Shown piece by piece: positions 4,095 through 31,832 of a stretch of DNA of 64,000 nucleotides. This DNA is from Hydrocarboniphaga sp. GTDB lineage: Bacteria > Pseudomonadota > Gammaproteobacteria > Nevskiales > Nevskiaceae. Location of the stretch: contig NZ_JAQGNT010000011.1 in the NCBI RefSeq assembly GCF_028291725.1, positions 1 through 64,000 of the forward strand. The letters are read 5' to 3'. Within the stretch, counting starts at the first letter, position 1; each line of letters opens with the position of its first letter. Position numbers and translations under genes: made by a program. Under the pieces are notes generated by a model that did no database searches, was not told the DNA's origin, and worked only from the letters and a program-made list of their open reading frames with translations.

Positions 4095-4718
4095 CTACAC
4101 GGGGCAGGCGGCACCGGTGCTGATCCACTCGCCGATCAGTGCGCCGAACTGCGCCTGCGTCCCCGGTGCCGGCTCGCGCGGCTGGCGGCTGATGTCGATA
4201 CCCGGGTTCCAGGCCCAGCCGACCAGCGAATCCTTGGCCATATGGTCCTCGAGCTGTTTCATCGATTTGCCGCCGTTGCGCTTTTTATCCTTGATCTGCT
4301 CGCAGATCTGCGCCAGCGACTGGCCCTGCCAGGCCATCTCGATCGGCGCGACGTGCCACAGCGGATGGCCCGGCACGCCGGAGGCCTCGAAGTTCTGCGC
4401 CTGGTGACAGGTATTGCACTGGAGCGCGGTGGCGCCGTGATTGTCCGGGCCGCGGACCACATGCGGCAGGTGCGGATGCAGATCCAAGCCCTGCGTCGGG
4501 CTGTCGCCCTTGGGATGGCAGTTCATGCAGCGCGGATGCTGGATCACCTTGCCGGCCTCGGTGAACAGCGCACGCGAACGCTCGGTCTTGTCGCTGATGC
4601 CGGCGAAATCCCGCGGCGATTTCAGTGTCTGGACTTGGTCGGCGGCCGCCAGCGTAGTACTCAGGCTCAGCGCCGACAGCAGCAAGCCGAGCAATCCTTG
4701 TCGCAATCCTTTGAACAT
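4095..4718 (-). CDS. Exported diheme cytochrome c-like protein next to a molybdenum hydroxylase
   Basis: 207 residues with the start at 4718, chosen because AGGAGA lies 7 bases before this ATG; a longer frame exists upstream without a ribosome site. The N-terminus is a signal peptide ending near LAAADQ. Two haem c attachment motifs are visible, CMNCH and CNTCH, with HP-rich spacing between them (HPHLPHVVRGPDNHG). The rest does not resemble a standard class I cytochrome. The gene is divergent from iorA-iorB. In related periplasmic molybdenum hydroxylases a c-type cytochrome takes the electrons, so acceptor for IorAB is the likely role; this is an inference from position. Confidence 0.8.
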   Translation of the reverse strand: MFKGLRQGLLGLLLSALSLSTTLAAADQVQTLKSPRDFAGISDKTERSRALFTEAGKVIQHPRCMNCHPKGDSPTQGLDLHPHLPHVVRGPDNHGATALQCNTCHQAQNFEASGVPGHPLWHVAPIEMAWQGQSLAQICEQIKDKKRNGGKSMKQLEDHMAKDSLVGWAWNPGIDISRQPREPAPGTQAQFGALIGEWISTGAACPV

Positions 4719-4786
4719 AATGCGTCTCCTGAGGCTGGCCGCGGGGCGGGCGAGAGAACGGTACCGAGCCTGCATCATAATGGTAG

Positions 4787-26619: not shown

Positions 26620-27891
26620 GTGGATCACTTTCAGTATCGCGAAGGCGAGTTGTACGCCGAAGACTTGCCGTTGTCGCGTATCGCGGCCGAACATGGCACG
26701 CCAACCTATGTCTATTCGCGCGCCACGCTCGAGCGCCATTACCGCGCGTTCGACAGCGCGCTCGCCTCGGTGCCGCATCAGGTCTGCTACGCGGTGAAGG
26801 CCAATTCCAATATCGCGGTATTGCAAGTGCTGGCCCGGCTCGGCAGTGGCTTCGACATCGTCTCCGGCGGCGAACTGCTGCGCGTGCTGCGCGCCGGCGG
26901 TGATCCGGCAAAAGTCGTGTTCAGCGGCGTCGGCAAGACCGAAGCGGAACTGCTGCTGGCGCTGGAACACGGCGTCGGCTGCTTCAATGTCGAGTCCGAA
27001 GCCGAGTTGCTGTTGCTCGATGAACTCGCGCAGCGCAGCGGACGCATCGCATCGATTGCACTGCGCGTGAATCCCGATGTCGACGCCAAGACGCATCCGT
27101 ATATTTCCACCGGGCTCAAGCAGAACAAGTTCGGTGTCGATCTGATCACCGCCGAGCGCCTGTACCGCGACGCAGCGACGCGCAAGGGTCTGCGCGTGAT
27201 CGGCATCGCCAGTCACATCGGCTCGCAGCTGCTCGATGTATCGCCGTATCTGGACGCGCTCGATCGCGTGCTGACGCTGGTCGACAGGCTCGCGGCCCAG
27301 GGCATCAAGCTCGATCATCTCGATGTCGGTGGTGGACTCGGCGTGCGTTATCGCGACGAGAAAGTCACCGAGCCCGCAGCCTGGGCGGCGGCGTTTCTGC
27401 CCAAGCTCGCCGGCCGTTCGCTGAAGATCTACACCGAACCCGGCCGCGCGATCGCCGGCAACGCCGGCGTGCTGCTGACGCGCGTGCTGCTGTTGAAGTC
27501 GGCCGAAGAAAAACGCTTCGCCATCGTCGACGCGGCGATGAACGATCTGCTGCGCCCCGCGCTGTACCAGGCCTGGATGGACATCGTTGCCGTCAGCCAA
27601 CAAGACCGGGCGCCGGCAATCTACGACATCGTCGGCCCGATCTGCGAAACCGGCGACTGGATCGGCCGCGACCGCGAACTCGCCATCGCCGCTGGCGATC
27701 TGCTCGCGGTGCGCACCGCGGGCGCCTACGGCTTCGTGATGAGTTCCAACTACAACACGCGTGGACGCGCGGCCGAAATCATGGTCGACGGTGCGCACGC
27801 CGTCGTCGTGCGCAAGCGCGAGACTTTCGAGGATCTGATCCGCGGCGAGCGTCTGCTCGAGCCCGACTCAGAGCGGCGGCAGGACGCGTAA
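26620..27891 (+). CDS. lysA: Diaminopimelate decarboxylase
   Basis: 423 residues with a GTG start. It makes L-lysine from meso-diaminopimelate using PLP. The PLP lysine is K60 in CYAVKANSN. HIGSQLLD, DVGGGLGVRY, EPGRAIAGNAG, GPICETGDWIG and the tyrosine of GAYGFVMSSNYNTR form the active site at the dimer interface. It follows lptM. dapF, its usual next gene, is replaced here by polA, whose ATG overlaps the last base of the lysA stop (TAATG). Confidence 0.97.
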   Translation: MDHFQYREGELYAEDLPLSRIAAEHGTPTYVYSRATLERHYRAFDSALASVPHQVCYAVKANSNIAVLQVLARLGSGFDIVSGGELLRVLRAGGDPAKVVFSGVGKTEAELLLALEHGVGCFNVESEAELLLLDELAQRSGRIASIALRVNPDVDAKTHPYISTGLKQNKFGVDLITAERLYRDAATRKGLRVIGIASHIGSQLLDVSPYLDALDRVLTLVDRLAAQGIKLDHLDVGGGLGVRYRDEKVTEPAAWAAAFLPKLAGRSLKIYTEPGRAIAGNAGVLLTRVLLLKSAEEKRFAIVDAAMNDLLRPALYQAWMDIVAVSQQDRAPAIYDIVGPICETGDWIGRDRELAIAAGDLLAVRTAGAYGFVMSSNYNTRGRAAEIMVDGAHAVVVRKRETFEDLIRGERLLEPDSERRQDA

Positions 27892-30731
27892 TGACGAACG
27901 AAGCGGCAGCGAAAACCGAGCCGGTGCATCCGCTGGTTCTGATCGACGGATCGAGCTGGCTGTTCCGTGCTTTCCATGCGCTGCCGCCGCTGAGCAATTC
28001 ACGCGGCGAGCCGACCGGCGCCGTCTACGGCATGGGCAATATGCTCAAGCGTTTGCAGCGCGAATACGCGCCGCAACGCATTTGCGTGGTGTTCGATCCG
28101 AAAGGCCCGACATTCCGCAACGAACTCTACGAGCAGTACAAGGCGAACCGTACCGAGACGCCGCCGGAACTGTCGGCGCAGTATGCCGACGTTCTGGCGC
28201 TGATCGCGGGTCTGGGCCTGCCGATGATCACCGTCGACGGCGTCGAGGCCGACGACGTCATCGGCACGCTCGCTGTGGCCGGGCGCGCACAAGGACTCGA
28301 TGTGTTGCTGGTGACCAGCGACAAGGACATGGCCCAGCTGGTCGACGAGCGCACGCACATGCTCGACACGATGAAGAACCTGCGCATCGATCGCGAAGGC
28401 GTGATCGCGAAATTCGGCGTGCCGCCGGAACGCATCATCGATTACCTGGCCCTGGTCGGCGACACCTCCGACAACATCCCCGGCGTCGATGGCTGCGGCC
28501 CCAAGACCGCCGCGAAATGGATCGCCGAATACGGCTCGGTCGAGGAGATCATCCGTCGCGCCGACGAAGTCAAAGGCAAGATCGGCGAGAAGCTGCGTGC
28601 CTCGCTGCCCGTACTGCCGCTGGCTTACCAGCTCGCAACGATCCGCTGCGACGTGCCACTGCCGCTGACGATCGATGCCCTGGTGCCTGGCCCGCGCGAC
28701 GATGCCGCGCTGATCGCGCTGTACCGCAAACTCGAATTCCACCGCTGGCGCGAAGAACTGGAAGTTGGCGCGCCGGCAACGCCCGAGCAGACCGACAGCG
28801 CCGCAGCGGAAACCTCGGCGCCGGTTGCTGTCGCCGCGAGCACCGGGATCGCCGACCTCGTCGAGCCGTCAGCGCCGACGCAGGTCGAAACGGTGATGGA
28901 CGCCGAAGCGCTGGACCGGCTGGTTGCCGCGCTCGAGTCGGCGGATCTGATCTGCTTCGACACCGAAACCGACGACCTCGACGCCAACCAGGCCGGCCTC
29001 GTCGGCCTGGCTTTCGCCACGGAATGCGGCACCGGCTGGTACGTGCCGCTTGCACACAACTATCTCGGCGCGCCAGACCAGTTGCCGATGGCCGAGGTGA
29101 TCGCGCGCGTCAAACCTTTTCTCGAAGATCCGGCCCGGCCGAAAGTCGCGCAGCACGGCAAGTACGACATCAACGTGCTGGTGCGTCACGGTATCGACGT
29201 CGCCGGCCTGGCCTACGACACGATGCTCGAAAGCTACGTGCTCGACGCCGCCGGCAACCGCCACGACATGGACACGCTGGCCGAGAAATACCTGAACCAC
29301 CGCACGATCCATTTCGAGGACGTCGCCGGCAAGGGCAAGAACCAGATCACCTTCAACCAGGTGTCGATCGACAAGGCCGCGCCGTATTCGGCCGAAGATG
29401 CCGACATCACGCTGCGCCTGCATCGGACACTGTTTCCGCGCGTGCAGGAAGTCGGATCGCTGCTGACTGTGTTCGAACACATCGAAATGCCGCTGGTGCC
29501 GGTACTGGCGCGTATCGAGCGCCGCGGCGTGTTCGTCGACGTGCCGCTGCTGAAACGCATCAGTGTCGAACTCGCCGGCCGCATGGACGAGCTGCAGAAG
29601 CAGGCGCATGCGCTGGCCGAAGGCGAATTCAATCTCGGATCGCCGAAGCAGTTGCAGGTTTTGCTGTACGACAAATTCAAGCTGCCGGTGCTGGCGAAGA
29701 CGCCCAAGGGCGATCCATCGACCGCGGAAGACACGCTGGAAGAACTCGCGTTGCAGCACCCGCTGCCGCGGCTGATTCTCGACTGGCGCGCGATGCAGAA
29801 GCTGCGCTCGACTTACGCCGATCAGCTGCCGGCGGCGGTGAACCCGCTCACTCACCGCATCCATACCAGCTACCACCAGGCGGTCGCGGCGACCGGCCGT
29901 CTGTCTTCGTCGGATCCGAACCTGCAGAACATCCCGGTGCGCACAGCCGAGGGCCGGCGCATCCGGCAGGCTTTCGTCGCCGAGCCCGGCAATGCACTGC
30001 TGTCGGTCGACTACTCGCAGATCGAGCTGCGGCTGATGGCGCATTTCTCAGAGGACGAGCGGCTGCAGCAGGCGTTTCGCAGCGGCCTCGACGTGCATCA
30101 GGCCACCGCTGCCGAGGTCTTCGGCTTGGCGCTGGAGGAAGTCGGGCCCGACCAGCGCCGCGCCGCCAAGGCGATCAACTTCGGCCTGATCTACGGCATG
30201 TCGGCTTTCGGTCTGGCCCGACAGCTGGCGATCGGCCGCAGCGAGGCGGCGGAATACATCGAACGCTTTTTCGGCCGCTATCCCGGCGTCAAACGCTTCA
30301 TGGACGGCACCCGCGAAGCCGCGCGCTCGCGCGGCTATGTCGAAACCCTGTTCGGCCGCCGGCTATACCTTCCCAACATTAATGCCCGCAACCTGGGCCT
30401 GCGTCAGTACGCGGAGCGCACCGCGATCAATGCGCCGCTGCAGGGCACGGCGGCCGATCTGATCAAGACCACGATGATCGATTTGCAGCACTGGCTGGAC
30501 GCCCATGCGCCGTCGGTGCAGATGATCATGCAGGTCCACGACGAACTGGTGTTCGAAGGCCCGGACGCCGCGATCCGCGAATTCGCGCCGCAGATTGCCG
30601 ACCGCATGTGCCGTGCGGCCGAGATCGCTGTGCCGCTGGTGGCCGATTACGGCATAGCCGGGAACTGGGACCAGGCCCATCAGGCCAGCGGTCACGCCAG
30701 CTCCGAAAGCCCGGCGCTGAACGCCGCTTAG
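27891..30731 (+). CDS. polA: DNA polymerase I
   Basis: 946 residues, all three domains. The 5' nuclease is at about 1-310 (LIDGSSWLFRAFHALPPL, EADDVIGTLA, DYLALVGDTSDNIPGV). The 3'-5' exonuclease starts at ICFDTETDDLDANQ with its acidic metal ligands intact, so proofreading should be active. The polymerase domain has motif A LLSVDYSQIELRLMAHF, motif B RRAAKAINFGLIYGMSAFG and motif C IMQVHDELVFE. A ~40 residue Ala/Thr/Glu linker joins the first two domains. The start overlaps lysA by one base. Confidence 0.98.
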   Translation: MTNEAAAKTEPVHPLVLIDGSSWLFRAFHALPPLSNSRGEPTGAVYGMGNMLKRLQREYAPQRICVVFDPKGPTFRNELYEQYKANRTETPPELSAQYADVLALIAGLGLPMITVDGVEADDVIGTLAVAGRAQGLDVLLVTSDKDMAQLVDERTHMLDTMKNLRIDREGVIAKFGVPPERIIDYLALVGDTSDNIPGVDGCGPKTAAKWIAEYGSVEEIIRRADEVKGKIGEKLRASLPVLPLAYQLATIRCDVPLPLTIDALVPGPRDDAALIALYRKLEFHRWREELEVGAPATPEQTDSAAAETSAPVAVAASTGIADLVEPSAPTQVETVMDAEALDRLVAALESADLICFDTETDDLDANQAGLVGLAFATECGTGWYVPLAHNYLGAPDQLPMAEVIARVKPFLEDPARPKVAQHGKYDINVLVRHGIDVAGLAYDTMLESYVLDAAGNRHDMDTLAEKYLNHRTIHFEDVAGKGKNQITFNQVSIDKAAPYSAEDADITLRLHRTLFPRVQEVGSLLTVFEHIEMPLVPVLARIERRGVFVDVPLLKRISVELAGRMDELQKQAHALAEGEFNLGSPKQLQVLLYDKFKLPVLAKTPKGDPSTAEDTLEELALQHPLPRLILDWRAMQKLRSTYADQLPAAVNPLTHRIHTSYHQAVAATGRLSSSDPNLQNIPVRTAEGRRIRQAFVAEPGNALLSVDYSQIELRLMAHFSEDERLQQAFRSGLDVHQATAAEVFGLALEEVGPDQRRAAKAINFGLIYGMSAFGLARQLAIGRSEAAEYIERFFGRYPGVKRFMDGTREAARSRGYVETLFGRRLYLPNINARNLGLRQYAERTAINAPLQGTAADLIKTTMIDLQHWLDAHAPSVQMIMQVHDELVFEGPDAAIREFAPQIADRMCRAAEIAVPLVADYGIAGNWDQAHQASGHASSESPALNAA

Positions 30732-30877
30732 ACGCTGCGCCGTTCGTCGGCCCCGGGCTGCCGCCGGTACCCGATAAACAAAATTTAACTTAAATAAAAA
30801 ATAGTTCAATATCAAAGATATACACGTGCTCCATTAGCTTATGGAGGCCGCTGTACACGCAAATACAAAATACGTCG

Positions 30878-31033
30878 TGAACTTTCCACGCGACTCTCTC
30901 TCTAATCCCCTGAGTGTGGACCTCTCCCTTCCCACACTCCCCGCCGTCACTCCCTCGGCGGGTCCGGTTTCCCCCAAGCCGGAGCTTGTTGCCCCGCGAG
31001 TCTCCCCCCGGCTCGCGGGGCTTTTTCTTTTTA
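30878..31033 (+). ncRNA. Candidate regulatory small RNA with four C/U-rich loops (polA-engB locus)
   Basis: Between polA (+) and engB (-) is a 358 bp gap. After an AT-rich lead (30776-30835) come four successive hairpins: GAGTGTGG/CCACACTC (30912-30939), CCCGCCG/CGGCGGG (30940-30962), CCGGTTT/AAGCCGG with one G-U pair (30964-30982) and the terminator stem (30991-31021). Every loop is C/U-rich (CCTCTCCC, CACTCCCT, CCCCC, TCTCCCCCC) and could pair with Shine-Dalgarno sequences. No reading frame explains the gap. The position is that of Spot 42 in enterobacteria and ErsA in Pseudomonas, and, as I recall, of sX13 in Xanthomonas, which also has C-rich loops. The 5' end is a guess from a TACAAAAT -10-like element at 30864. 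Confidence 0.75.
30991..31033 (+). terminator. Strong intrinsic terminator ending the candidate small RNA
   Basis: GCCCCGCGAG (30991-31000) pairs perfectly with CTCGCGGGGC (31012-31021), followed by TTTTTCTTTTT. This is the best intrinsic terminator in the window and faces rightward. It is 260 bp past polA, so it most likely ends the small RNA rather than the polA mRNA alone. Confidence 0.9.
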
Positions 31034-31089
31034 GAAGGCGTTTCACTTCAGCAGCTGAAAACGCGCTTCCAAAAGATAGTTATCAAGCC

Positions 31090-31710
31090 CTAGCCCGCCA
31101 GCTCCACTCCGGCTTCGCTGGCCAGCAGCCCGGCCAGCTTGGCCCGCGCCTCGTCCAGGCCTTGATGGCTGCTCGACGAGAACAGTTGCACGCTCGCCGA
31201 GCTGCCCATGTCTTTCAAGCCTTTCCGGGTCGCCAGCAGTACGTTCTTGGACGCGCCATAACCGAGCTTGTCGGCCTTGGTCAGCAGGATGTGGCAGTTG
31301 CGCCGCGCGCCGACTGCCCAGGCCAGCATCTGCTGGTCGTAGTCAGTCAGCGGGTGGCGGCAATCCATGACCAGGAACAGGCCGCGCAGGTTGATCCGCT
31401 GTTCGACGTAGCCACCGACCAGCCGGCCCCAGCTTTTGCGCATAGGCTCGGGGACGGAGGCATAGCCGTAGCCCGGGAGATCGGCCAGGCGCGAGGCGTC
31501 GCCGAGGCCGAACAGGTTGATCAACTGGGTGCGGCCCGGTGTCTTGGACACGCGCGCCAGGCCGTGACGGCCGCATACCGCGTTGAGCGCACTGGACTTG
31601 CCGGCGTTCGAGCGGCCAGCGAAAGCGACCTCCGGCAGGTCGTCGTCGGGCAACTGGGTGAGCTGGGCGCAGGAAAGAAGAAACTGCGCCTGGGAAAAGG
31701 GATTCTGCAT
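31090..31710 (-). CDS. engB: Ribosome biogenesis GTP-binding protein EngB (YsxC/YihA)
   Basis: 206 residues, a TRAFAC GTPase needed for large-subunit assembly. G1 is AGRSNAGKSSALNAV, G2 region SKTPGRTQLINLF, G3 DLPGYGYA and G4 LLTKADKL. The order polA-(small RNA)-engB, with engB on the opposite strand, is conserved across gammaproteobacteria. It diverges from the cytochrome c4 gene. Confidence 0.97.
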   Translation of the reverse strand: MQNPFSQAQFLLSCAQLTQLPDDDLPEVAFAGRSNAGKSSALNAVCGRHGLARVSKTPGRTQLINLFGLGDASRLADLPGYGYASVPEPMRKSWGRLVGGYVEQRINLRGLFLVMDCRHPLTDYDQQMLAWAVGARRNCHILLTKADKLGYGASKNVLLATRKGLKDMGSSASVQLFSSSSHQGLDEARAKLAGLLASEAGVELAG

Positions 31711-31832
31711 AGACCAACCGGAGTGTAGAGAAGTGTAGAATTACGCCGCCAAATTATCTGGTTAGCGCTGCCACCGCCACTTGGCGGTTTGCGCGGCGCA
31801 CCAGCAGCCAATTGCACCGGGAGCCTCGTTCG

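Follow-up and report, generated by a model that had tools for sequence, protein, structure and literature searches.

The gap between polA and engB in a Hydrocarboniphaga genome contains, as judged from sequence evidence, a real small RNA (sRNA) gene. It lies at 30911-31032 on the plus strand of the window, the 64-kb stretch of genome G000 (6.47 Mb in 120 contigs) that was analysed, and it appears to be a four-loop variant of the polA-linked sRNAs with C-rich loops. We consider it likely that the product is a trans-acting envelope-stress sRNA, which would be transcribed from its own sigma-E/AlgU-type promoter and block the G-rich Shine-Dalgarno sites of many targets. This explanation draws on the predicted fold, the covariation of the stems, the C-rich loops 2-4, the promoter sequence, the synteny, the additional copies and the tandem arrays. 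The structure and the promoter class are well supported; the transcription, the sigma dependence and the targets we infer.

The gap is 358 bp long. Its neighbours, polA upstream (27891-30731, plus strand) and engB/ysxC downstream (31090-31710, minus strand), are convergent and served as syntenic anchors. The best PolA segments matched those of H. daqingensis at 86% and those of H. effusa at 76%. An EngB scan of viral_contigs found no relative. A 295-aa open reading frame on the plus strand (30841-31728) runs over the sRNA region and is mostly antisense to engB. We rejected a coding role for it because the indels among the family members are not multiples of three.

The start of the predicted RNA, which is about 120 nt long, was placed about six bases after the -10 box, and its end was taken from the U tract. 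The predicted fold of 30911-31032 had an energy of -63.0 kcal/mol, compared with -38.0 ± 3.4 for 200 shuffles (z = -7.3), none of which was equal to it. Four hairpins follow each other on the plus strand. Hairpin 1 (30912-30939) has 8 bp and the loop ACCUCUCCCUUC at 30920-30931, hairpin 2 (30940-30962) has 7 bp and the loop UCACUCCCU at 30947-30955, and hairpin 3 (30963-30983) has 8 bp and the loop CCCCC at 30971-30975. Hairpin 4 (30991-31021, 12 bp) carries the loop UCCCCCC at 31003-31009 and, together with its tail TTTTTCTTTTT, forms a strong intrinsic terminator at 30991-31032. All four loops are C/U-rich, with mean unpaired probabilities of 0.99-1.00 in the predicted fold. The sequence-only reading, which had described four consecutive hairpins with exposed C/U loops and a terminator at the end, was thus correct about the anatomy. 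Its start at 30776 was about 135 bases too far upstream, and the AT-rich lead that it had included in the RNA does not belong to the transcript expected from the promoter at 30879-30905. When part of this lead was added to the fold, the 5′ side of hairpin 3 paired upstream. At the gathering cut-offs of Rfam, no match was found in the 64-kb window, and sub-threshold matches such as snoM1 and NEAT1 were dismissed as chance.

The putative promoter (30879-30905, plus strand) comprises GAACTT (30879-30884), a 16-base spacer and TCTAA (30901-30905). It matches the consensus of AlgU, the sigma-E of Pseudomonas, which is given as GAACTT-N16/17-TCtgA in the available text of two papers (PMC10651043, PMC3819740). 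The sigma-E elements of X. campestris are similarly listed as GAACTT and TCTCA in the accessible part of PMC4229105. A sigma-70 scan found no promoter. The pattern GAACTTN15-17TCTRA occurs twice in the 6.47-Mb genome, each time preceding an sRNA copy, and a backward control pattern occurs six times; the count by itself is uninformative and the positions before sRNA copies are informative. Among four copies of the genome, two have a perfect box, and the remaining two deviate from it at one and at two positions, respectively. In the whole order, a box of at least 9/11 precedes 119 of 139 copies, compared with 101 of 5000 random stretches that were drawn from the same loci and possibly include true sites. 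Upstream sequence was lacking for one further copy and includes masked bases in one of the 139. The spacing in the 119 boxes is 16 in 93 cases, 17 in 24 and 18 in two.

RpoE is encoded in three of the four Hydrocarboniphaga genomes, the fourth being 86% complete, and Hfq in all four. No GAACTT box was found in about 600 bases upstream of rpoE in these three genomes (L265, L266, L267). The rpoE gene of Hydrocarboniphaga may therefore not be autoregulated through this box, and it could not be used as an anchor for the promoter call. The missing box at rpoE would also fit a repressor of the same C-loop type whose expression is constitutive or depends on another ECF sigma factor, and which hence is not an envelope-stress RNA. 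The one Xanthomonadaceae sX13 locus that we examined, which has no GAACTT box, points in the same direction. Against this stand the box and its 16/17 spacing, which equal the AlgU consensus in the text available from PMC10651043 and PMC3819740, and ErsA, which occupies the same locus and is AlgU-dependent according to the accessible portions of PMC5819304 and PMC8575079. We thus regard a different sigma factor or constitutive expression as unlikely and retain the sigma-E/AlgU-type promoter. As a separate observation, the genome has a homologue of AlgF (alginate acetylation) at G000:C83:99201-99716 (L262), and no other match at E ≤ 1e-10 was found among 143 genomes of the class. Control of an alginate pathway by an AlgU-like sigma factor would be consistent with this homologue.

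We then placed the RNA in a family. Because hairpin 1 and the terminator came out wrongly aligned with MAFFT (alignment A1), only 20 of the 40 gathered copies were used as the seed of a covariance model, R1. They came from other genera of the window's family (f1), which we take to be Nevskiaceae from general taxonomy and from named members such as Nevskia. Left out of the seed were nine Hydrocarboniphaga copies, L036, L012, two of the three L035 copies, one of the two L014 copies, L021, two L037 copies, L038, L039 and L023. As no Hydrocarboniphaga copy was included, the window is an independent test of R1, and it was matched at 30907-31030 with 86.1 bits. In the family, R1 matched 57 of 58 genomes and all 49 good ones (E ≤ 0.01); in the order, it matched 83 of 85 genomes and all 72 good ones (E ≤ 0.001). 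A second model, R2, was trained on 107 sequences, including R1 loci from outside the order. The features that define the R1/R2 family were all found in the window: four covarying hairpins, C-rich loops 2-4, a GAACTT-N16/17-TCNNA box, and polA and engB as neighbours.

R1 found 140 copies (138 distinct) in 82 stretches of the order, which had been fetched because they have matches. Among the 138 distinct sequences, all 29 stem pairs change on both sides, and 97.8% of the cells pair. There were 822 compensated cells in an alignment that was fitted to the structure, compared with 24-59 when the partners were slid by 1-3 columns. A MAFFT alignment with a hand-written structure (A2) gave 70 compensated cells, compared with 0-7 after sliding. 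CCC is present in loops 2, 3 and 4 of 137, 138 and 140 of the 140 copies, respectively. Covarying stems and C-rich loops in related gaps were what the sequence-only reading had asked for. Loop 2 is kept as CUCCC in 133 of the 140 copies, and in 104 of 107 sequences of the wider alignment. A C-rich loop 1 occurs in 80 of 86 copies of the window's family, in two of seven in f2-f5 and in none of 47 in f6, five named loci having been assigned to families through matching scores or coordinates. The usual form, which is also that of sX13, thus has three C-rich loops, to which the window's family has added a fourth. The idea of a four-loop variant is borne out by this distribution, since a C-rich first loop is mainly confined to that family. 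The label "lineage-specific", which the same reading had applied to the RNA as a whole, does not suit an RNA found across nearly the entire order and widely in the class.

The earlier reading missed the sigma-E/AlgU-type promoter, the tandem arrays and at least three additional copies elsewhere in the genome. BLASTN and R1 together revealed at least four copies: the window copy, C85:14682-14816, C116:38028-38160 and C116:67404-67562. A fifth, more divergent copy (C11:32654-32779, 54.6 bits) was listed by R2 only, and R2 counts six matches in this genome at E ≤ 0.001. One dispersed copy (L112) and a dispersed copy of H. daqingensis (L115), the latter near lexA, have surrounding sequence blocks in common, though arranged in a different order. 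Two other dispersed copies adjoin a penicillin-binding protein gene and a phosphate transporter gene. Among eight scanned proteins encoded next to dispersed copies, including three proteins of the window's own genome, none is a mobile-element protein. An 80-bp palindromic REP-like repeat also occurs near dispersed copies of this genome (L111:126-208; L112:6760-6841; L113:2185-2266 and 4660-4739), with repeats up to 96% identical. In contig 1 of H. effusa (G001), the proteins predicted at about 20-157 kb are repeated, each time 203,532 bases further along (L273-L290), which is either a large direct duplication or an assembly artefact.

Two or more copies occur in 29 of the 82 stretches of the order, always on the same strand within each stretch. 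Panacagrimonas perspica has three copies between polA and engB, and three loci of family f6 (L150, L151 and L152) have arrays of five to six units there. The largest array, with six copies, is L150 (G047:C2:79500-87500). Among the 58 start-to-start distances in arrays, 53 are within 175-327 bases. Most array units seem to be separate transcription units, because 74 of 87 have a promoter box of at least 9/11; two others had no usable upstream sequence. These data also bear on whether the element is a mere transcription terminator, or a 3′ end structure, between two convergent genes that makes no separate RNA. The convergence of polA and engB and the textbook form of hairpin 4 would agree with this. 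However, a terminator would not explain the promoter box before most copies (119/139 in the order), the three other hairpins, whose stems covary and whose loops are conserved, the copies that this genome carries at sites other than polA, or arrays of up to six units with their own boxes in 74 of 87 cases. We consider this explanation highly improbable and treat the element as an sRNA gene.

The family extends widely in Gammaproteobacteria. At E ≤ 0.001, R1 matched 109 of 369 genomes of the class, four of these in the window's order, and R2 matched 192 of 369; class counts at this level include chance matches, as RF02837 at the same level also matched three of 14 control genomes. Outside the order, polA or engB adjoins the match in 26 of the 27 best R1 loci, and a box of at least 9/11 is present in 21 of the 27. 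In a sample of 143 genomes, 54 R2 matches outside the window's own genome were listed, comprising those stronger than about 1e-9, and the neighbours were checked for these matches. Forty of the 54 are within 3 kb of engB, 37 of them converging with it; nine have engB farther away or on another contig, and five belong to genomes in which engB had no match. One family match in Lamprobacter (L046:8921-9045) lies about 2.2 kb past the end of the polA match and not directly behind it. Matches to the cspA thermoregulator of Rfam, just over the cut-off, lie beside the sRNA at L191:961-1401 and L198:1018-1451 and are possibly due to chance.

The promoter box was also surveyed at 79 named polA loci. 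A box of at least 10/11 was present within 500 bases after polA in 17 loci, seven of them in the window's order, and no such box was found in this interval in the other 62. The same box occurred on the other strand in one of 79 loci, and in 10 of 1178 random stretches of the same loci. The box-bearing loci outside the order include Amphritea, Nitrincola, Aliiglaciecola and Porticoccus. In Oleiagrimonas and in Luteibacter, two loci each carry CAACTT-N16-TCTAA.

In the mechanism that we propose, envelope stress would lead an extracytoplasmic sigma factor, a homologue of RpoE, to transcribe 30911-31032 and at least three dispersed copies. The RNA would end at its own terminator, hairpin 4, and act in trans. 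Its rigid hairpins would present four C/U-rich loops, which could base-pair with G-rich Shine-Dalgarno regions and so deny ribosomes access. In this way, one sRNA might reduce the output of many proteins, outer-membrane proteins plausibly among them. From what we have, we infer the transcription, the base pairing, the repression and the target class alike, together with the sigma dependence. Blocking of ribosome sites is the best reading because the anatomy is the same as that of sX13 plus one loop, and masking by the loops is plausible by this analogy. Against this proposal, C-rich loops fit any strong Shine-Dalgarno site and so do not by themselves explain specificity.

Alternatively, the C/U loops might serve as a protein decoy. 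The RNA would then titrate either Rho, a protein with a preference for C-rich RNA, or Hfq, bound by way of the U tail, and tandem copies would add binding sites. Repeated similar loops on stems, amplified in arrays, do recall sponge RNAs such as CsrB. However, loop 2 is kept as CUCCC, which is close to the anti-Shine-Dalgarno sequence, and not as any run of C. Moreover, the relative sX13 acts through its C-rich loops on G-rich motifs independently of Hfq, according to the available text of PMC3771888. A decoy therefore seems quite unlikely to us, and the blocking of Shine-Dalgarno sites is still preferred.

We also attempted to predict targets by pairing the four loops with guessed ribosome-binding sites at guessed gene starts, with crude home-made rules for exported (signal) and barrel-like proteins. 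In H. effusa (1.2 Mb, 781 genes), exported proteins made up 34 of the top 100 compared with 164 of all 781 (P = 8e-4), and none of 100 shuffled loop sets was as high; an earlier version of the test, with only three shuffled sets, had given 35 of 100. The 16S anti-Shine-Dalgarno control showed no such enrichment (26 of 100, P = 0.12). Barrel-like proteins were in the top 100 in 11 of 17 cases, and the same control also gave nine of 17. Ten H. effusa candidates chosen for their exported look comprised, by Pfam, four TonB receptors, one outer-membrane efflux protein, DUF1302 and DUF3570 proteins, and three without a match. The enrichment was not replicated in a second genus (G029, 0.8 Mb), where 25 of the top 100 were exported compared with 134 of 626 (P = 0.2). 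In that genome, a control stretch 65-95 bases upstream also gave 25, and two of 100 shuffled loop sets reached 25; three of nine barrel-like proteins were in the top 100, and 34 of 100 shuffled sets were as high. Given this lack of replication, the target class is a hypothesis only. Regulation of hfq, as in sX13, was rejected: the ribosome-binding site of hfq is AAGGAAG, and GGGAG is absent from it in the four genomes.

A search of the open-licence PMC literature found no paper on this RNA in Hydrocarboniphaga or its order. As far as our searches show, the class-wide unification, the sigma-E-type promoter in the order and the arrays are new.

Among the known RNAs, sX13 of Xanthomonas (RF02232) is similar in lying directly downstream of polA. 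The accessible text of PMC3771888 describes it as a 115-nt RNA with three hairpins of stable stems and C-rich loops, the last being CCCCC, whose loops mediate an Hfq-independent repression of mRNAs that carry G-rich motifs close to the start codon. The window RNA differs in having four hairpins with C-rich loops instead of three. It scored 24.9 bits with RF02232, below the gathering score of 50, and no match at E ≤ 0.001 was found in its genome. RF02232 exceeded its cut-off in one of 143 class genomes, with a single match (G096:C34:203774-203887), and no scanned Rhodanobacteraceae locus reached it. This G096 copy is the sX13 locus without a GAACTT box. R1 matched this Rfam-confirmed locus (203772-203880) with 32.7 bits (E = 2.2e-5) and R2 with 44.6 bits, which agrees with the relationship to sX13 proposed in the sequence-only reading. 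Common descent with sX13 is thus supported rather than proven, given the moderate scores.

Another related RNA is anti-hemB, or Burkholderia RNA 7 (RF02837), which has a similar hairpin 2 with a CUCCC loop and a terminator. With a cut-off of 49.5, the window scored 43.9 (below) and an H. effusa copy 54.2 (above). RF02837 exceeded its cut-off in six of 143 class genomes and reached E ≤ 0.001 in 69 of 143 and in three of 14 controls. Of the 48 places outside the order where it scores best, 43 coincide at least in part with places listed for R1 or R2. The window copy lies between polA and engB and not at hemB, where RF02837 is presumably located from its name. Unlike the window copy, the best RF02837 match (G190) has neither polA nor engB within 1.5 kb on either side; its best GAACTT box is a poor 7/11. 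RF02837 was also over its cut-off at engB loci of other bacteria (L204, L202, L200, L031), and at polA too where the sequence extends that far. The Rfam name and scope of this family look too narrow. In B. cenocepacia, anti-hemB is ncS04, an expressed RNA of 105 nt, in the available part of PMC5688073, and it is also listed in PMC3521395.

ErsA of Pseudomonas aeruginosa likewise lies between polA and engB, and is described in the accessible text of PMC5819304 and PMC8575079 as an AlgU-dependent RNA of 132 nt. By description only, it differs from the four hairpins of the window RNA in having the stem-loops SL1 and SL2 on either side of an unstructured domain, and its action is Hfq-dependent in the text available from PMC8575079. 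The earlier reading had also placed Spot 42 (RF00021) in this gap, and we located it after polA in Vibrio mimicus and Shewanella jiangmenensis. Spot 42, which is CRP-controlled, had no gathering match in the window, and R2 did not match at its two places; a weak R2 match was found in Shewanella 68 bases downstream of it. 6C RNA (RF01066), an actinobacterial family, shares the C-rich hairpin loops, and the window scored 37.6 against its cut-off of 47.

It seems slightly more probable than the contrary that sX13, anti-hemB, ErsA and the window RNA are branches of one ancient polA-engB lineage in Gammaproteobacteria. This lineage would have been driven ancestrally by an envelope-stress sigma factor and have worked as a mobile version of the ribosome's own anti-Shine-Dalgarno; the fourth loop would have been gained in the window's family, and the arrays of up to six units would represent dosage amplification in the order. 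A family that spans the class, sits mostly at a single locus, has a sigma-E-type promoter and is amplified in tandem in one order suggests that a connection leading from envelope stress to translation has been conserved. Its natural arrays offer a setting to ask why cells want several similar sRNAs, and it ties together RNAs that have been named separately.
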